39,179 bases of DNA from Chitinophagales bacterium (GTDB taxonomy: Bacteria; Bacteroidota; Bacteroidia; Chitinophagales; JADIYW01), in NCBI GenBank assembly GCA_019694955.1, contig JAIBAX010000046.1, positions 1 to 39,179 on the forward strand, in the 5' to 3' direction. Below are positions 10,655 through 38,072 of the stretch, one piece after another. A model generated the notes under the pieces. That model was not told the origin of the DNA, made no database searches, and worked only from the letters and a program-made list of their open reading frames with translations. Numbering within the stretch: the first letter of the stretch is position 1; every line of letters starts with the position of its first letter. The position numbers and the translations under genes were made by a program.

Positions 10655-13600
10655 ATGAGTGAGTCTGTGTATAATAAAAAATTTAAAGAGCATAAGTCTG
10701 TGCATCCTGTAGACATAGAAAAGGAAGTGCTAGATTTTTGGAAGCGAGAGAAGATCTTTGAAAAAAGTATTTCTTCTAGGGAAGGAGCGCCAGCATATGT
10801 TTTTTATGAAGGACCGCCTTCTGCCAACGGTATGCCGGGTATACATCATGTTTTATCCAGAACGATAAAAGATATTTTTTGCAGATACAAGACGTTGAAA
10901 GGCTTTCAAGTACACAGAAAGGGTGGCTGGGATACCCATGGATTGCCCGTGGAGTTGCAAGTAGAAAAGGTATTAGGCATTACCAAAAAAGATATAGGCA
11001 CTAAGATTTCTGTTGAAGATTATAATACCAAATGTCGCGAGGAGGTGATGAAATTCAAGGATGCTTGGGATGATATCACCCAAAAGATGGGTTATTGGGT
11101 AGACTTGGAGCATCCATATATTACTTTTGACAATGATTATATAGAGACATTGTGGTATTTGTTGAAGGAATTATACAAGAAGGATTTCTTATATAAAGGG
11201 TTAAAAATTCAGCCATATTCTCCGGCTGCCGGAACGGGGTTAAGTTCTGCCGAACTAAATTTACCGGGTTGCTATAAGATGGTGAAGGATACTACGGCTG
11301 TTGCTCAATTTAAATTGCAGTCTCCGTTTCCGAAACACTTGGCCGATATTGAGGGAGATGTTCATATATTGGCATGGACGACCACACCTTGGACTTTACC
11401 ATCCAATACAGCATTGGCGATGGGTAAGAATATTGAATATGTTTTGGTGAAAACCATCAATCCATATACACACGCACCGCTAAACGCCGTATTGGCAAAA
11501 GTGCTGATGAGCAATTTCTTTCATCCGGAACAGGAGAACAAAGATTTCTCTACGTATCAGCAAGATGGAAAAAATATCCCATATAAGGTTTTAGCCAGTT
11601 TTAAAGGTGCTGAATTGGCAGGGTTGTCGTATGAGCAACTCTTACCTTTTGAGGCGAATACAAAAGAGCATATTGAGGGAGATGCGTTCAAGATAATACT
11701 TGGGGACTTTGTCACTACTGAGGATGGTACCGGAATTGTACATATTGCGCCTAGTTTTGGTGCCGATGACATGAAAGTGGCAGCAGAAAACGGTATTGGG
11801 TCATTAACGATGGTTGATAAAGAGGGAAAGTTTATCGATGGCATGGGGCCATATTCTGGCAGATTTGTTAAAGACTATAAGGATGAACCGAATTATGTTT
11901 CAGTTGATGTTGATATTGTTATCCAGCTTAAGAAGGAAAATAAGGCATTTAAGGTAGAGAAATATGAGCATACTTACCCACATTGTTGGCGAACAGACAA
12001 GCCCGTTCTGTACTACCCACTAGATTCTTGGTTTATTAAAGTTACGGCGGTAAAAGAACGGATGATTGAGTTGAACAAAACCATCAACTGGAAACCTGCC
12101 AGTACTGGGGAGGGGAGATTTGGGATGTGGTTGGAAAATTTGGTTGACTGGAATTTATCGCGTTCAAGGTTCTGGGGAACACCCTTGCCAATTTGGCGAA
12201 CAGAAGATGGCGAGGAAGAAATCTGTATTGGTTCGGTAGCAGAATTGCGTAGTGAAGTCTTAAAATCTGTTGCAATGGGTTTTATGGACGCTCCGCTTGC
12301 AGATGATTTTGACTTACACAAACCCTATGTTGATCAGATAATATTGACTTCTTCAAAAGGAACGCCAATGAAGCGTGAGTCTGATTTAATAGATGTTTGG
12401 TTTGATTCCGGGGCGATGCCTTATGCACAGATACACTATCCCTTTGAAAACAAAGAACAGTTGCATCAAGTTTTTCCTGCCGATTTTATAGCGGAAGGTG
12501 TTGATCAGACTAGGGGATGGTTTTATACCTTACATGCCATTTCGACCATGTTATTTGACTCTGTCGCCTACAAAAATGTTGTTTCTAATGGACTTGTATT
12601 AGATAAAAATGGCAATAAGATGTCTAAGCGTTTGGGTAATGCAGCAGATCCTTTCCAGACGTTAGGTAAATATGGGGCGGATGCCACCCGTTGGTATATG
12701 ATTTCTAATAGTCAGCCTTGGGACAATCTTAAGTTTGACTTAGAAGGTATCGAAGAGGTAAACCGTAAGCTATATGGTACATTGTATAATACTTATGCTT
12801 TCTTTTCGCTATATGCCAATATTGATCAATTTAGTGTGGTTGAGGAGCAGATACCGCTTTCAGAACGACCTGAGATAGATAGGTGGGTGATATCTTTGTT
12901 GAATACCTTGGTAAAAAATGTAGATGCATTTTATGCAGATTATGAACCAACAAAAGCCACCAGAGAGATACAAACTTTCGTAAACGACCATTTAAGCAAT
13001 TGGTACGTTCGGTTGTGTCGGAGGCGTTTTTGGAAAGGAGAATATAGTAAGGATAAAATTGCTGCTTATCAAACCTTATATCAATGCCTGGAGACTGTTG
13101 CAAGACTTATGGCACCTGTTGCACCTTTTTATTCCGATTATTTGTATAAATGCCTCCATACTGAATTGGATGATGCGGCTTCTGTTCATTTAGGTCTTTT
13201 TCCGGAAGTAGATTTTGTTGCTATTAATGAAGACTTAGAAAAGCGAATGGATATTGCTCAGGAGATATCCTCCATGGTACTTTCATTGCGAAAGAAGCAA
13301 AGTATAAAAGTAAGACAACCTTTACAAAGGATTATGTTGCCCGTAGTGAGAGAAGGCTTTGTAGAACAGGTTGAACAAGTGAAGGAGTTGATTCTCAACG
13401 AGGTGAACGTGAAAGAGATAGAATATGTAAATGATACCTCCGGAATAGTGAAGAAACGGATAAAACCAAACTTTAAGGTATTGGGAAAGAAGTTAGGCGG
13501 AAAGATGAAGATGGCGGCAGATGCAATACAACAATTTAGTCAGGTAGAGATACAGCAATTAGAAAATGCAGGTAATAAGGAACTTTATCTCGACGGAGAA

Positions 13601-13972
13601 CGTTTTGAAATTGCATTAGAAGAGGTAGAAATATTTTCGGATGATATAGAAGGATGGTTGGTGACCAGTAATAATGGGATTACAGTTGCATTAGACATCC
13701 ATCTTTCAGATTCCTTGTTGAATGAAGGGTTGGCACGAGAGTTGGTGAATAGAATACAAAATGAACGGAAGGATGCCGGTTTCTTTGTTACTGACTATAT
13801 AAAAATCCATGTGGAAGAAAATGAAAGTATAAAAGATGCTTTAATAGAATTTAAACAGTACATTTGCGGCGAAACATTAGCAAAAGATTTATATATGGTT
13901 TCATCTTTGCCAGAAGCAAAAGAAATGGATATAAATGAGGTAATGGTTCGCATCCTTATTGAAAAAATATAG
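10655..13972 (+). CDS. ileS: Isoleucine-tRNA ligase, type 2-like, with GxHH signature
   Basis: Charges tRNA-Ile in the cytosol; class I synthetase of 1105 residues. The Rossmann start FYEGPPSANG is followed by PGIHH (61-65) where the canonical motif is PHIGH, so the first His and the Gly of HIGH have exchanged places (GxHH). An editing CP1 domain follows (about 200-420, with AWTTTPWTLPSNTALA and DGTGIVHIAPSFG). The catalytic core resumes at NLSRSRFWGTPLPIW and the KMSKR loop is intact at 655-659. The anticodon-binding and C-terminal domains are of the long eukaryote-like type with no C-terminal zinc motif evident. A -7 box lies at 10620. The gene overlaps or abuts the DksA-like gene, with lspA next, as one operon. 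Confidence 0.97.
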   Translation: MSESVYNKKFKEHKSVHPVDIEKEVLDFWKREKIFEKSISSREGAPAYVFYEGPPSANGMPGIHHVLSRTIKDIFCRYKTLKGFQVHRKGGWDTHGLPVELQVEKVLGITKKDIGTKISVEDYNTKCREEVMKFKDAWDDITQKMGYWVDLEHPYITFDNDYIETLWYLLKELYKKDFLYKGLKIQPYSPAAGTGLSSAELNLPGCYKMVKDTTAVAQFKLQSPFPKHLADIEGDVHILAWTTTPWTLPSNTALAMGKNIEYVLVKTINPYTHAPLNAVLAKVLMSNFFHPEQENKDFSTYQQDGKNIPYKVLASFKGAELAGLSYEQLLPFEANTKEHIEGDAFKIILGDFVTTEDGTGIVHIAPSFGADDMKVAAENGIGSLTMVDKEGKFIDGMGPYSGRFVKDYKDEPNYVSVDVDIVIQLKKENKAFKVEKYEHTYPHCWRTDKPVLYYPLDSWFIKVTAVKERMIELNKTINWKPASTGEGRFGMWLENLVDWNLSRSRFWGTPLPIWRTEDGEEEICIGSVAELRSEVLKSVAMGFMDAPLADDFDLHKPYVDQIILTSSKGTPMKRESDLIDVWFDSGAMPYAQIHYPFENKEQLHQVFPADFIAEGVDQTRGWFYTLHAISTMLFDSVAYKNVVSNGLVLDKNGNKMSKRLGNAADPFQTLGKYGADATRWYMISNSQPWDNLKFDLEGIEEVNRKLYGTLYNTYAFFSLYANIDQFSVVEEQIPLSERPEIDRWVISLLNTLVKNVDAFYADYEPTKATREIQTFVNDHLSNWYVRLCRRRFWKGEYSKDKIAAYQTLYQCLETVARLMAPVAPFYSDYLYKCLHTELDDAASVHLGLFPEVDFVAINEDLEKRMDIAQEISSMVLSLRKKQSIKVRQPLQRIMLPVVREGFVEQVEQVKELILNEVNVKEIEYVNDTSGIVKKRIKPNFKVLGKKLGGKMKMAADAIQQFSQVEIQQLENAGNKELYLDGERFEIALEEVEIFSDDIEGWLVTSNNGITVALDIHLSDSLLNEGLARELVNRIQNERKDAGFFVTDYIKIHVEENESIKDALIEFKQYICGETLAKDLYMVSSLPEAKEMDINEVMVRILIEKI

Positions 13973-31080: not shown

Positions 31081-31578
31081 ATGAAAATGAATATACCATA
31101 TAAAACCGTACTATTCGTCATAGCAGCACTTGCTATGGGTGGATATTTTTACAAGAAGTATTTTATTGCCCCTAAAATTTCCTTCCCGAACCTGACCATC
31201 TATGATCTTGAAGGCAAGGCACATCAACTGGATGAATTTAAGGGAAAACCCATTTTGGTCAATTTTTGGGCAACATGGTGCGGAACATGTTTACAAGAAA
31301 TGCCGGAATTGTATGATGCCTCCAAGATACTTAAAGAAAAAGGAATAGAAACCATCCTAATTTCAGACGAAACCCCGGAAAAAGTTCGAAACTATCAGGA
31401 TAAGTCAGGATATGACTTCCAATATTTTACCACAAAACTAGATAGAGAAGACCTGAAGATATATTCTATACCCACAACTTACCTGATGGATAAAAATGGA
31501 AACGTTGTTTTTAGTAAAGTGGGGAAAGAAAGATGGAGTAGTCCTGAGATGATAAAATCTTTGATAGATAAATTATAA
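31081..31578 (+). CDS. TlpA-like membrane-anchored thioredoxin
   Basis: A 165-residue thiol-disulfide protein. An uncleaved N-terminal membrane helix (about 8-24) is followed by a thioredoxin fold facing the periplasm. The active site reads NFWATWCGTC (Cys67, Cys70), with the cis-proline motif IPTTYLMDKNGNVV. It probably reduces periplasmic disulfides, as TlpA/ResA-type proteins do; the partner is unknown. The start MKMNIPYKTV (ATG, six bases after the previous stop) fits. The last 81 bases of the gene are repeated 3.3 kb downstream (34798-34879), with five mismatches. Confidence 0.9.
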   Translation: MKMNIPYKTVLFVIAALAMGGYFYKKYFIAPKISFPNLTIYDLEGKAHQLDEFKGKPILVNFWATWCGTCLQEMPELYDASKILKEKGIETILISDETPEKVRNYQDKSGYDFQYFTTKLDREDLKIYSIPTTYLMDKNGNVVFSKVGKERWSSPEMIKSLIDKL

Positions 31579-31579
31579 G
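31498..31579 (+). repeat. 82-bp direct repeat, left copy (3' end of the thioredoxin gene)
   Basis: The last 81 bases of the thioredoxin gene plus one base. It matches 34798-34879 at 77 of 82 positions with no gap, at an exact offset of 3300 bases. This copy is the functional one: it keeps the reading frame. Confidence 0.9.
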
Positions 31580-31696
31580 TTCTGACTTCTCATTTAAGGA
31601 AAGACCAATTATTGCAACCCAAAACTTAATTTGTGCATTAAGGAGTTGAATCTTATATGAGCACAATTTTTTATATCTTGAAGCCAAAATATTTAG

Positions 31697-33151
31697 ATGC
31701 ATCAACATGAAATAACACGGTTAGTTTTAAAAATTGAACATCAATACTCAAAAGAAGTAAAGAAATATCTACTTAATTCAAAAAAAAGCAGAACCGCACA
31801 ATTATATAAACTGATAATTTCAGCTAAAAATCAAGAGCAGCTAGAAAAAGGTTTAATTTTCAAGAAATTATTTACTAAATCCTATTCTGAAAAAACCGAT
31901 TACTTATGGCGCAATGAAATTCGTTTATTAAAAGAAGAATTGGAAATTTTCTTGATTCAAATGGAGCATGAACATTTCTCAAAAAACAATCAAGCATATA
32001 ATGATTGGTTGTTAATGCATGCTTTCGATAAACTTAAATATATGGATGGTTTAGATGAAAAGTATGATGTTTTAATAAAAGATAAAGATACTTATGCATC
32101 GTATTCATTTGTTTTAGATGCCTGTATGCTTCATTTAAGCAATCTAACACATAAATTTTCTGACATTACGAAACGCTCTAAAGCATATCCAGAACCTATT
32201 GAAGCGACAAAAATGGTTTTAAAGGATGTAGTTTCTGCGAATGCCGCCAGACTAAATGTATATATTTCATACTTTAACTGGATCTCTTATCATCATCAAT
32301 ATAAAGAGAGAGAACCCTTAATCTTGAATGAATACAATTTTATCTTAGAGAAAAACCCTATCAGTAATTTTTATAACCATTTGGCTGGTTCTGTAACAGA
32401 TTCTAGTGAAAAAAGCCATCAAACGCAAATCGAAAATCTGGACGCAGCCCTACAAGATATTGAACCATTATATAAAAAAAACAAGCTGCTGTTAGAGAAT
32501 AGGGTAATTGTATTAATGGCTAAAGGTAGAGAACAATCTGCCAATGGTTATTTTTTGGAAGCAGATACAATATTTAGAAGTATAAAAGAAGACATCGACA
32601 ATTTATATCCGCAACACAGAACGGTATTTTACGTCAATTATATTACCAATTTAGTGAAGTATAAAATGTACAAAGAAGCCTTATATGTTTTAGAACATGA
32701 ATTTACTACAGATAATTTATTGTATAAAAACATGCTGTTGCAGAGTCGGTTGCTTTGTTATTTGTATTTACGAGACACAAGAAATTTAGCTGATTATATT
32801 TCTTATGATTTGGATACCGCTCCTTTTCCGCAAAATTACATGCTAAAGGTTATTAAATCGGCATATTTTTATTTAATTAAAGAATATGAAACCGCCATTA
32901 GCATTAATAACAGTTTGTTGCATGCAAAATATACAACAGATAACTTATTGTATTACAAACCAATTTCTTTGATCTACAAAAAATTATATGCCATTGCTCA
33001 AAAGAATAGCATTCAAAAAAAGATAGTACCCTCAGACCTTAAAATATTAAAAGACGCAGTAGATGAATTTGAAAGAACATCTTCAAATGAAATTAAATTA
33101 GTTTCTGTTTATTTATGGATAAAGCAAGAAATTGAAGGCTTGTTAAAGTAA
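31697..33151 (+). CDS. Helical protein of unknown function (TPR-like)
   Basis: A 484-residue protein I do not recognise. It has no signal peptide or membrane segment. It is almost wholly alpha-helical in appearance, with repeated short helices rich in Lys, Leu and Tyr that suggest TPR- or SEL1-like solenoid packing (for example YFYLIKEYETAISINNSLLHAK near 396-418, and KYKMYKEALYVLEHEF near 313-328). Base composition is clearly more AT-rich than the genes before it. It opens the block between the two thioredoxin 3'-end repeats, 118 bases after the thioredoxin stop, so it looks like a recent arrival. Confidence 0.75.
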   Translation: MHQHEITRLVLKIEHQYSKEVKKYLLNSKKSRTAQLYKLIISAKNQEQLEKGLIFKKLFTKSYSEKTDYLWRNEIRLLKEELEIFLIQMEHEHFSKNNQAYNDWLLMHAFDKLKYMDGLDEKYDVLIKDKDTYASYSFVLDACMLHLSNLTHKFSDITKRSKAYPEPIEATKMVLKDVVSANAARLNVYISYFNWISYHHQYKEREPLILNEYNFILEKNPISNFYNHLAGSVTDSSEKSHQTQIENLDAALQDIEPLYKKNKLLLENRVIVLMAKGREQSANGYFLEADTIFRSIKEDIDNLYPQHRTVFYVNYITNLVKYKMYKEALYVLEHEFTTDNLLYKNMLLQSRLLCYLYLRDTRNLADYISYDLDTAPFPQNYMLKVIKSAYFYLIKEYETAISINNSLLHAKYTTDNLLYYKPISLIYKKLYAIAQKNSIQKKIVPSDLKILKDAVDEFERTSSNEIKLVSVYLWIKQEIEGLLK

Positions 33152-33295
33152 AAATGCAACGCAAAGGATCCATATTCATGTTGATTATTAATTAGTTACC
33201 GATTCTTACTTCAGAATTCCACTCACAAAATCGAAATACTTCATTTTGTCTCATTTTTGTTTTGATGCAATTTCACACCAACAAAAAATGAGATT

Positions 33296-34189
33296 ATGAA
33301 ATCAATTTATCAAAAACTCAAGGATTTAAAAATTAGGTCTTCTGGTAAATCATTTACAAAACTAGTGTCGAGTATAATTGTACTCAGTGCTATTCTTATT
33401 TCCTGTAAAAAAGAAGAAACAACATCCGAAACATGGCAGTTTACCAAATTAGTAAATGCTACTTTAGATAATGATGGCTACATGGTGACATTAGATTTTT
33501 ACCAAAAGAAAGGGGATGAATGGCGAATAGTGCAAATGACACCGGATGATTACGCAAATTTTTATTTGAAGAAAATTATTACACCTAATTCATTTCAATT
33601 GCCTATTGACAATCCTTCTTCATACATTACTTCAAATGTGCAGTTATTTAATCCAGCCGATGAAAAAGTCTACAATCAAGGAAATTTAAGATGGTATTTG
33701 GGAGATCCAATTCAATTTAATAGTTTTAATACTTTCAACTATGAATTTCCAGAAATGCCCATTGCTTATACAGCCATCGGCAAATTTAGTGCGGCAACTT
33801 TTTCACTCGAACAAGCGTATGACAATAACCCAAAAACAAGAACGTATCTTTTCTATGATTTTCCAAATCAAAAATATGTGTACTATGGATTTAGAGTTGG
33901 TGCTGATTTAATACTTGAAAATACTTTACCACAAATTTGTCCAACATGCAATACTATAAATTGGAATACCATTGATGCAGTAACAAATACGGGAATAAAA
34001 GGCAACACGGATTTGTATTACTTTTTCGATTTCGATGCAAGAAAAATGTACATATTAAATAGAATAAATAAATACGCTAATAATGCATCTTTTCAATTAA
34101 ATAATTTACCCATAAATTTTGATGATGCATTTTATAATGAAGCAGGTTCAAATGGTGGAGAAGAGTTGCCCTTCGATTTCAGTAAATAA
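33296..34189 (+). CDS. Lipoprotein of unknown function
   Basis: A 297-residue predicted lipoprotein. A long N-terminal positive stretch (about 25 residues) and a hydrophobic segment lead to the lipobox LISCKKEE with Cys37, and the residues after the Cys are Lys-Lys-Glu-Glu. Without Bacteroidota surface-export data I cannot say which membrane leaflet it faces. The mature part is beta-rich (YYFFDFDARKMYILNRINKY, ISFQLPIDN-like segments) with one CPTC pair near 220. It lies in the AT-rich block, 47 bases before a second lipoprotein gene. Confidence 0.72.
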   Translation: MKSIYQKLKDLKIRSSGKSFTKLVSSIIVLSAILISCKKEETTSETWQFTKLVNATLDNDGYMVTLDFYQKKGDEWRIVQMTPDDYANFYLKKIITPNSFQLPIDNPSSYITSNVQLFNPADEKVYNQGNLRWYLGDPIQFNSFNTFNYEFPEMPIAYTAIGKFSAATFSLEQAYDNNPKTRTYLFYDFPNQKYVYYGFRVGADLILENTLPQICPTCNTINWNTIDAVTNTGIKGNTDLYYFFDFDARKMYILNRINKYANNASFQLNNLPINFDDAFYNEAGSNGGEELPFDFSK

Positions 34190-34236
34190 TTATCGACGAT
34201 TTAAAACAAATTTCTTTAAAAATTAAATACAAAAAA

Positions 34237-34698
34237 ATGAAAAACAAATTAAAAACAATTTCTATCCATTTATTGATTGTGCTTGCAATCGTTACTTCGT
34301 CTTGCAAAAAAGAAAGTGATGACAACAACAGCACTGGAAAGACAGGCACATTCACCATAGATGGTGTGAGTTATGCAGGTGAAACAGAAGAACAGACTTT
34401 TGTAAATGAAAATTACTCTATTGTATGTCAGCAGGATGACCCGTTTAAATTAATACAAGTTACATTTCACAATCAGGCGGAAGCGGAAGCAGGTGGAACG
34501 TTTGATGTAGAAGATTATGCATTGAATGTTCCAACAGGCGGTGTTCATGTAGGTGTTGATGGTTTAACATTTGACCCAGAAGGTAGCCATACAATTTCTG
34601 TTTCAGGCAAAAAAATTACAATCACTAATCTTTCTTTAGAACAAACAGGTGGTGGTTCTCAGAGTCCGGTTGTAAGCAATGCAAGTATTAATTTCTAA
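34237..34698 (+). CDS. Small lipoprotein of unknown function
   Basis: A 153-residue predicted lipoprotein. The signal peptide is KTISIHLLIVLAIVTSSCKK with lipobox Cys23. The mature protein is a short beta-sandwich-like domain (GTFTIDGVSYAGET, KKITITNLSLEQTGG) with a Ser/Gly-rich end. It has no family I can name. It follows the larger lipoprotein by 47 bases in what looks like a small operon. Confidence 0.7.
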   Translation: MKNKLKTISIHLLIVLAIVTSSCKKESDDNNSTGKTGTFTIDGVSYAGETEEQTFVNENYSIVCQQDDPFKLIQVTFHNQAEAEAGGTFDVEDYALNVPTGGVHVGVDGLTFDPEGSHTISVSGKKITITNLSLEQTGGGSQSPVVSNASINF

Positions 34699-34715
34699 TA
34701 GCAAAATTTAAAACG

Positions 34716-34814
34716 ATGAAAAAGCTAGTTAACATTTTACTACTTACATTAATAACTGCATGTAAAAAAGTGACAAAACAACAATTGGTATATAAGAGGA
34801 AACGTAGTTTTTAG
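34716..34814 (+). pseudogene. Truncated lipoprotein gene joined to a thioredoxin fragment
   Basis: A 32-codon frame begins MKKLVNILLLTLITACKKVT, a good lipoprotein signal with a lipobox Cys16, but after only about a dozen further codons it runs into the copy of the thioredoxin 3' end at 34798 and stops at 34812-34814 in that copy. I read it as the 5' end of a lipoprotein gene cut off at the right edge of the inserted block. Confidence 0.6.
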
Positions 34815-34879
34815 TAAAGTAGGGAAAGAAAGATAGAGTAGTCCTGAGGTTATAAAATCTTTGATAGATAAATTATAAG
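34798..34879 (+). repeat. 82-bp direct repeat, right copy (decayed)
   Basis: Copy of 31498-31579 with five substitutions, among them a TGG to TAG change that makes it non-coding. The segment between the copies, 31580-34797, is 3218 bases long and carries AT-rich genes of unknown function. Confidence 0.88.
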
Positions 34880-35088
34880 AATAAAGTTACCACCTTGACA
34901 AAAATGAAAGTTAAACCCAGAATAAGCGTTGGACTTTATAGCGAAAGGGAATTATTTAAAAATAGCTATGAGGCACGGAATTTTTCTCCCGCAGACGTAG
35001 TATAACTGCGTTGAGGACAGAAAAATGAGTACAGAAATAGATATGAAGTAGAATTTTCTTGCAGTAAATTTCTAACGCTTTTTCAGGG

Positions 35089-35616
35089 TTAAAAAATCCT
35101 TCTAAACCCAACCACTCTCGGCGCCCAATATTGGTTAGTCGTTTTAGCATAAGAAATACCTTTGGAACTAGCGGCATTGATAAAAGTAATTTCATCACCG
35201 TCAACAGCAGTAACGATACCTACATGTCCTATATAAGAGGAAGATAAACTTCTACCTTTAAAACATATGACATCGCCGGGTTGAACACAGTCTTTGGAAA
35301 CCTTTTCGCCGAAATGTGCATAATCCATTGCGCGCACAGGAGTAGAAATATTGAAATGTCTGAAAATATAGGAAACATAACCGGAGCAATCAAACCCTTT
35401 TGGAGATTTTCCCCCATATACATAAGGAATGCCTAGAAACTTCTCAGAATAATTGAGTAAAGAGTCAATCTTGTCAAAAATACTACCACCTTCTTCACAA
35501 CTGGAAGTTACCTCTGGAATATAAATATCAGCAATTAAATTAGCATCCTCATGATTTTGCGCCATTAGCGCACCACTAAACAGGATAAATACAAATGTTA
35601 ACAGCTTTCTACTCAT
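35089..35616 (-). CDS. NlpC/P60-family cell-wall peptidase
   Basis: A 175-residue exported cysteine peptidase that would cut peptide links in peptidoglycan. Signal peptide MSRKLLTFVFILFSGALMAQ (cleaved near 20). The catalytic domain has GFDCSGYV (Cys77), IGHVGIV (His131) and a third polar residue FINAAS (Asn147, where many relatives have His). The open frame goes 37 codons further upstream but those residues look unlike a signal; the ATG at 35616-35614 is chosen. A frame of noncoding sequence with a small hairpin follows. The gene stands alone and faces away from the island. Confidence 0.88.
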   Translation of the reverse strand: MSRKLLTFVFILFSGALMAQNHEDANLIADIYIPEVTSSCEEGGSIFDKIDSLLNYSEKFLGIPYVYGGKSPKGFDCSGYVSYIFRHFNISTPVRAMDYAHFGEKVSKDCVQPGDVICFKGRSLSSSYIGHVGIVTAVDGDEITFINAASSKGISYAKTTNQYWAPRVVGFRRIF

Positions 35617-35979
35617 AATCAGTTTGGTTTGGTTGATGAAATAATTTAAAAGCTGGCGCAAAGATATCTTCAAAAAACGGCATAAAAAAATGACGATTTT
35701 GCAAAATCCAGCCCATTTTAGGCGCATTTTTCTTAAAATTTTGTTAACGGATTTCGATATGTGTATTTTTTAACAAAAAATTAAGCATCCTGTTTGCAGA
35801 TTTTGAATGAGAGTGGATTTTATTGCGAATGTTGAAAAAAGTGAAAGCCTCACCATTTATGGTGAAAATAACATTCTGTTAACAATTTTAATGGGAAGGT
35901 TTTATAATATGAACCAAATTTGATGCCATGATTAGTAATTATTTATTTTTCTTACTATTTTAACACCTTGAAATCAGAA
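35617..35979. other. Intergenic region with hairpin and inverted repeats
   Basis: 363 bases between the divergent peptidase and the unknown gene at 35980. Seen: the perfect hairpin TCACCATTTATGGTGA (35850-35865, 6-bp stem, four-base loop), and several GTTAAC-like sites, among them AATTTTGTTAAC close to TTAACAAAAAATT, an imperfect inverted repeat near 35737-35789. No exact TAnnTTTG box was found. These could be operator or promoter parts; nothing is proven. Confidence 0.4.
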
Positions 35980-37115: not shown

Positions 37116-38072
37116 GATTCAAGAGCAAAAGTTGCTGCAATAAGAAGCAAGACCTTTTAGTAAAATGGGAGCAATGGAGACGAGATAGGATATAAAATTC
37201 AGGAATAAAAGCCTCAAGACTTGTCCTCAATGCGAACCACACTGAAAGAAGCCTCTTTTGAAAAAGTCGCAATACGCAGTACTCGTTACGCACTACTATC
37301 ATAGCAATGGAGACGAGATAGGATATAAAATTCAGGAATAAAAGCCTCAATACTTGTACTCAATGCAAACCACACTGAAAGAAGCCTCTTTTGATAAAGT
37401 CGCAATACGCAGTACTCGTTACGCACTACTATCATAGTAATGGAGACGAAATAGGATATAAAATTCAGGAATAAAAGCCTCAATACTTGTCCTCAATGCG
37501 AACCACACTGAAAGAAGCCTCTTTTAATAAAGTCGCAATACGCAGTACTCGTTACGCTGTACAATTGCCACGTATGCACGAATTTTATGTAAGCATTTGA
37601 AAATGAACGATTAATATAAGAGACAGGTGCTAAAATGGTTACAATGCACTGTATGAATATCACCATGCACACAAAGCAGGCACAAAGTTTCACAAAGTAT
37701 TGCCACTAATGAAAGGATTTTTTTTGACAAAGTCGCAATACGCAGTACTCGTTACGCACTACTATCATAGCAATGGAGACGAGATAGGCTATAAAATTCA
37801 GGAATAAAAGCCTCAATGCTTGTACTCAATGCGAACCACACTGAAAGGAGCCTCTTTTGATAAAGTCGCAATACGCAGTACTCGTTACGCACTACTATCA
37901 TAGCAATGGAGACGAGATAGGCTATAAAATTCAAGAATAAAAGCCTAAATACTTGTACTCAATGCGAACCACACTGAAAGAAGCCTCTTTTGATAAAGTC
38001 GCAATACGCAGTACTCGTTACGCACTACTATCATTGATTTCTCATTTTTTTAATATAAACCTTGTTGAAAAA
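37116..38072. other. Long noncoding region between ridA and rpsL promoters
   Basis: Almost 1 kb made up of the 133-bp repeats and one insert. The insert contains three CACAAAG repeats (near 37667-37697). No gene, tRNA or terminator could be found here. Confidence 0.6.
37171..38035. repeat. Tandem array of a 133-bp repeat, interrupted
   Basis: Four full units at 37171-37303, 37304-37436, 37770-37902 and 37903-38035, and a fifth, shortened one at 37437-37556. Between them stands a 173-base unrelated stretch (37557-37729) whose flanks repeat the sequence AAAGTCGCAATACGCAGTAC. The unit starts GCAATGGAGACGAGATAGG and contains ACGCAGTACTCGT, a near palindrome. Left units read AGGATATAAA and right units AGGCTATAAA, so each group spread locally. 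133 is not a multiple of three, and no frame continues across units, so it is noncoding. No spacer-like variation exists, so it is not a CRISPR. Confidence 0.9.

Follow-up and report, generated by a model that had tools for sequence, protein, structure and literature searches.

An AT-rich block of lipoprotein genes behind a tlpA-like gene in a Chitinophagales bacterium, most likely acquired from a sister genus

Within the Chitinophagales bacterium assembly GCA_019694955.1 we analyzed a stretch of 39,179 nucleotides (contig JAIBAX010000046.1, here called the window) in which a tlpA-like gene is followed on the plus strand by an AT-rich block of 30% GC (31580..34795), lying between two copies of the last bases of that gene. 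Four genomes of g3, a sister genus within the host's family, contain a homologous gene block. Judged from sequence comparison, the sister-genus lineage is the most likely source of the block, and we consider it fairly probable that an operon fragment from a g3 member or a close relative was joined illegitimately behind tlpA, with duplication of the tlpA end. An origin in the sister genus is indicated by restricted distribution, by protein distances, by GC content at third codon positions (GC3) and by codon usage, which together lend good support to an earlier note on this DNA, which had seen the locus as horizontal or rearranged.

The putative insertion target is an intact gene for a thiol-disulfide oxidoreductase of the ResA/TlpA type (31081..31578, plus strand), with matches to the Pfam families Redoxin (1.7e-19) and AhpC-TSA (2.2e-18) and to a ResA-like family at 1.3e-24, the latter under the cut-off. 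The left repeat copy (31496..31579, plus strand) comprises the terminal 83 bases of tlpA, among them its stop codon, and the first base beyond the gene, and the right copy is found at 34796..34879 on the same strand. The ungapped match between them extends over 84 bases, from GGAAACG (31496/34796) to TTATAAG (31579/34879), and outside both ends the alignment of the copies collapses. The earlier note had described a duplication of 82 bp (31498-31579 and 34798-34879), which is thus real but slightly longer than given. A repeat search of the window reported the pair as 31490-31579 and 34790-34879, at 91% over 90 nt. With BLAST against the whole genome of 4,135,380 bases the repeat was found in just two places (E 2.2e-30) and no third copy was present, so that a common genome repeat is ruled out, as is a chance match between the copies (E 2e-30). 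Contigs of the assembly have exact 127-mers in common at their ends, which corresponds to k=127; a repeat of 84 bases would therefore have been spanned, and an assembly artefact is unlikely to be its source. In the tlpA frame the right copy carries TAG in place of the tryptophan codon TGG, and GTT in place of ATG, indicating that the functional gene end is on the left and that the right copy is decayed. A scan of the contigs with the tlpA N-terminus, a poor query because the thioredoxin motif swamped the matches, returned no close relative.

The GC content of the block is 0.303 and that of the remaining window 0.379, in agreement with the higher AT content that had been noted before. Of the four genes previously counted in the block only three, here named P2, P3 and P4, are intact (484, 297 and 153 aa), while the fourth is the truncated start of a lipoprotein gene (MKKLVNILLLTLITACKK...; 34716..34814, plus strand) that is cut by the right repeat copy. 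P3 (33296..34189, lipobox ISC) and P4 (34237..34698, lipobox SSC), both on the plus strand, are lipoproteins whose signal peptides were read from the sequence. Searches of Pfam, NCBIfam, PHROGs and PADLOC assigned none of the three proteins convincingly to a family (for P3, no Pfam, NCBIfam or PHROG family above the cut-off), and known defence, phage or NCBI families were accordingly set aside for this cargo. The predicted structure of P3 was of low confidence, with a predicted local distance difference test (pLDDT) value of 56, and was not used.

P2 (31697..33151, plus strand) is predicted by AlphaFold to be an all-helical solenoid resembling tetratricopeptide repeat (TPR) proteins (pLDDT 89). 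Its best structural matches were Rap, NprR and AimR together with other TPR proteins. With the Rap/NprR/AimR (RRNPPA) receptors P2 has the TPR solenoid in common, reaching a Z score of up to 17.9 and a root mean square deviation of 5.7 over 289 residues, at a sequence identity of 7-13%. The TPR solenoid is a fold common to many proteins, and unrelated ones score Z 15-16 against P2, suggesting that the match gives a fold and no function. No Pfam domain was found in P2, Pfam being the extent of the search for an effector domain and for a cognate signalling peptide gene.

Relatives from other genera (g2, g3 and g4) were used for comparison, the g3 genomes including G002, G004, G006, G008, G009 and G010. 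In G002, G004, G006 and G010 the genes P2, P3 and P4 occur in the same order and on the same strand as in the host, with 53-77% amino-acid identity, and the block is flanked in every case by a DEAD-box helicase gene on one side and by mraZ, a gene of the cell-division cluster, on the other. In G008 and G009 the helicase-mraZ place is without the block, and the host mraZ has different neighbours and no block beside it. Full-length P3 was detected in 5 of 396 genomes of the order, namely the host and the same four g3 genomes, and was absent from the g2 and g4 genomes compared and from part of g3. As such, the block is not carried by all relatives. In three of the four g3 genomes with the block there is also a lipoprotein gene of 138-141 aa similar to the host's truncated one. 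In G010 this gene (L076:1444-1860, 138 aa) is located directly behind P4, and it has relatives in G006 and G004. The host's truncated gene takes the same place behind P4 and begins alike, and the homology ends at the right junction.

The sister-genus blocks also differ from that of the host. They are longer, carry variable genes between P3 and P4 and further genes behind P4, and adjoin the dcw cluster without a flanking tlpA repeat. Differing genes were seen between P3 and P4 at L078:9402-10475, L077:7295-8374 and L076:2380-3321, and two g3 blocks hold a protein of the Imm10+DUF695 type there, beside a 97-aa protein. P4 of G002 is mosaic-like, its second half resembling G006. The g3 block is apparently a variable, recombining cluster. 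Additionally, genes for IS200/RAYT-like transposases are located upstream of the helicase in two g3 genomes (L075:3631-4233 and L078:3155-3715, the latter with a Y1_Tnp match), in both cases close to partial copies of the transposase 3' ends.

The relative distances between host and sister genus carry most of the argument about descent. For RsmH, identity is 58-62% between host and g3 and 80-86% within g3, and for MraZ 46-49% and 60-85%, which places the host clearly outside g3; host IleRS is 68-70% identical to g3 and 65-66% to g4. The block proteins do not follow this pattern: P2 is 58-62% identical between host and g3 as against 55-83% within g3, P3 53-65% against 56-85%, and P4 58-77% against 56-76%. 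The P4 value of 77% between host and G010 is above every P4 value within g3, and in the P4 tree host and G010 were grouped at 100/99. Measured against RsmH and MraZ, the distances of the block to g3 are too small for the position of the host. GC3 is 0.254 in the block and 0.24-0.27 in g3 genes, compared with 0.353 in host genes. By codon usage (log-ratios) tlpA, the upstream gene for an OYE-family flavin oxidoreductase and the downstream NlpC gene all strongly prefer the host, which the block does not. An old tandem duplication followed by loss, offered previously as an alternative, leaves the foreign content between the repeat copies unexplained.

These same values make it very improbable that the block was ancestral in the family, was relocated within the chromosome of the host lineage and was lost from most relatives, with no transfer between genera. 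The unrooted P2 and P3 topologies would be compatible with such vertical descent, yet the relative distances, GC3 and codon usage speak against it, and so does the absence from g2, from the g4 genomes compared and from part of g3.

Several observations nevertheless weigh against the acquisition from g3. Trees of five sequences have no placeable root, so that topology by itself permits vertical descent, and the approximately unbiased test did not reject the g3 P2 sequences as one clade (p 0.21); the case therefore rests on relative distances and not on topology. The block is equally AT-rich (30% GC) in its sister-genus home genomes, meaning that the AT bias is in part a property of the block genes. 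No empty tlpA locus was seen among the genomes compared, all of which are from other genera, and in the sister genus the neighbours of tlpA differ from those in the host. The 117 bases to the left of P2 gave no match above shuffles when compared with sister-genus regions upstream of P2 and mraZ, so that an origin from a donor mraZ-P2 intergenic region was dropped and the left end of the donor DNA is undefined. Finally, the repeat extends by a single base past the tlpA stop codon, which is neater than a random break predicts and is as expected of elements that target gene ends.

According to the explanation we favour, a piece of an operon for a TPR protein and lipoproteins would have been taken up by the host from a g3 member or near relative and joined to the chromosome directly behind tlpA by illegitimate recombination. 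The 84-base end of tlpA would have been duplicated in this event, keeping the gene intact at the left and leaving a useless copy on the far side, at which the final donor gene would have been truncated. Joining may have come about through the filling-in of a staggered break, or through template switching near a palindrome located 31 bases from the junction. Decay would since have affected the truncated lipoprotein gene and the right-hand copy of the tlpA end, and the three complete genes are probably still in use as a small envelope module, in which lipoproteins would be combined with a TPR protein that binds peptides or proteins in the cytoplasm.

The absence of an integrase or transposase, already remarked upon in the earlier note, holds for the three block genes in Pfam, NCBIfam, PHROGs and PADLOC, in which no recombinase was found. 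Because the right end is inside a gene and no recombinase is present, the block looks like an operon fragment that entered by illegitimate recombination with target duplication. A transposon or IS (insertion sequence) insertion is not supported, as the repeat search revealed no pair of inverted repeats at the termini of the block and the direct repeat of 84 bp is no short target duplication. Classical bacterial end joining is ruled out as well, since the Ku gene is missing from the host and from four sister-genus genomes. P2 had no match in 72,556 plasmids and 50,697 phages, and neither P2 nor P3 had relatives in viral contigs, by which phage or plasmid cargo was excluded.

Genomic islands with tyrosine recombinases are known to integrate in the 3' ends of tRNA genes, icd, prfC and trmE; to our knowledge tlpA is not among such attachment sites. 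The position of the repeat end leaves a minor share of the probability with a decayed or integrase-less element of this kind: a remnant or non-autonomous integrative element with the tlpA 3' end as attachment site, its integrase acting in trans or deleted. In that case the element would have restored the gene end at the left, and the original end would have been displaced to the right. The host locus does resemble such islands in having a direct repeat of a gene end on both sides, a target gene left intact and an AT-rich, foreign cargo. It is unlike them in that no integrase is present, the cargo ends inside a gene and the repeat was not seen elsewhere, and 84 bp would be long for an attachment core. 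Thus, of the suggestion made before that an element had inserted into the 3' end and restored it, the geometry stands, while the missing recombinase, the right end in the lipoprotein gene and the lack of plasmid, phage and viral matches count against it, and overall we regard it as unlikely.

Insertion by illegitimate recombination has parallels in the literature on natural transformation. Homology-facilitated illegitimate recombination during transformation is attributed to De Vries and Wackernagel (2002) as cited in PMC3784515. Such integrations are like the present case in that a donor fragment without element ends is joined and the target is rearranged at a junction; one of the reports names insertion-deletions in its title, whereas the host locus has a target duplication. 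No description of the exact layout was found in the literature, which is weak evidence only.

The palindromic repeat to the right of the block (34911..35092, no strand assigned), overlooked in the first examination, is an imperfect palindrome of about 180 bp similar to miniature inverted-repeat transposable elements, with the ends TTAAACCC...GGGTTAA. It has 44 matches in the genome including itself, begins 31 bases to the right of the right repeat copy and supplies the stop codon of the neighbouring NlpC gene. A gene remnant at 34880-35088 was considered and rejected, the sequence being this palindromic repeat. No longer copy with the same ends, which could have been an autonomous partner, was present in 1.48 Mb of the host genome. 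We treat the palindrome as adjacent to the junction and not as part of the inserted DNA; it may have promoted the event. It could also have stalled replication, as would suit an origin of the locus in two events, in which a copy of the tlpA end served as filler at the junction of a later deletion that shortened an existing block on its right side, or the block was inserted between the copies of an earlier small tandem duplication of the tlpA end. A right junction inside a truncated gene is likewise what a deletion breakpoint would leave. However, under the filler model it would be a coincidence for the copied stretch to stop virtually at the tlpA end, next to the left edge of the block, and one event suffices; we therefore hold two events to be improbable.

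To look for duplicated gene ends with other DNA in between, we scanned 1.48 Mb of the host together with 1.19 Mb of control DNA from unrelated bacteria. Two cases were obtained in the host, the window and contig C76, and no such case in the control, although these counts are too few for statistics and the window had been chosen beforehand. In C76 (L277) the last 55 bases of ardC with the terminator (12760-12826, 67 bp) recur 849 bp further on, at 13675-13741, with 97% identity, and an AT-rich gene with a NYN domain lies between the copies. Contig C66 starts (L267:1-127) with the exact 127-mer that ends at L277 12826 and then continues with other genes, namely three membrane-type genes, a secreted protein and an SpvB-like gene, which places a branch point of the assembly graph precisely where the ardC repeat ends. 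The ardC site is a possible site of cargo exchange. This second locus of like geometry speaks in favour of the integrative element discussed above. It could also be taken to mean that the genome inserts cargo behind genes, duplicating the last 55-85 bases of the target and using no recombinase of the cargo, with tlpA and ardC/NYN as two products, but we give this little credence, and two cases, one of them preselected, do not prove a common mechanism.

To the right of the palindrome lies the gene for an NlpC/P60 hydrolase (35089..35727, minus strand; PF00877, 5.8e-23), the right flank with host-like codon usage mentioned above. Further along, between a RidA-like gene and rpsL, there are two arrays of a 133-bp unit (37170-37557 and 37722-38034; units 96-97% alike); in the 1.48 Mb of the host genome that were scanned, this unit occurred nowhere else.

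Were the genome to insert cargo behind genes in this manner, the branching into the C66 cargo at the ardC end would mean that cargo is still changing there, and if the scar does recur, as C76 and C66 might indicate, it would point to a so far unnamed way for cargo genes to be placed behind other genes while leaving these intact. More likely, the tlpA locus bears an ordinary though readable scar of acquisition whose likely source can be named down to the sister genus. It would then be a well-delimited example of a lipoprotein operon fragment that moved between two genera of one family and was kept, with its scar still readable.

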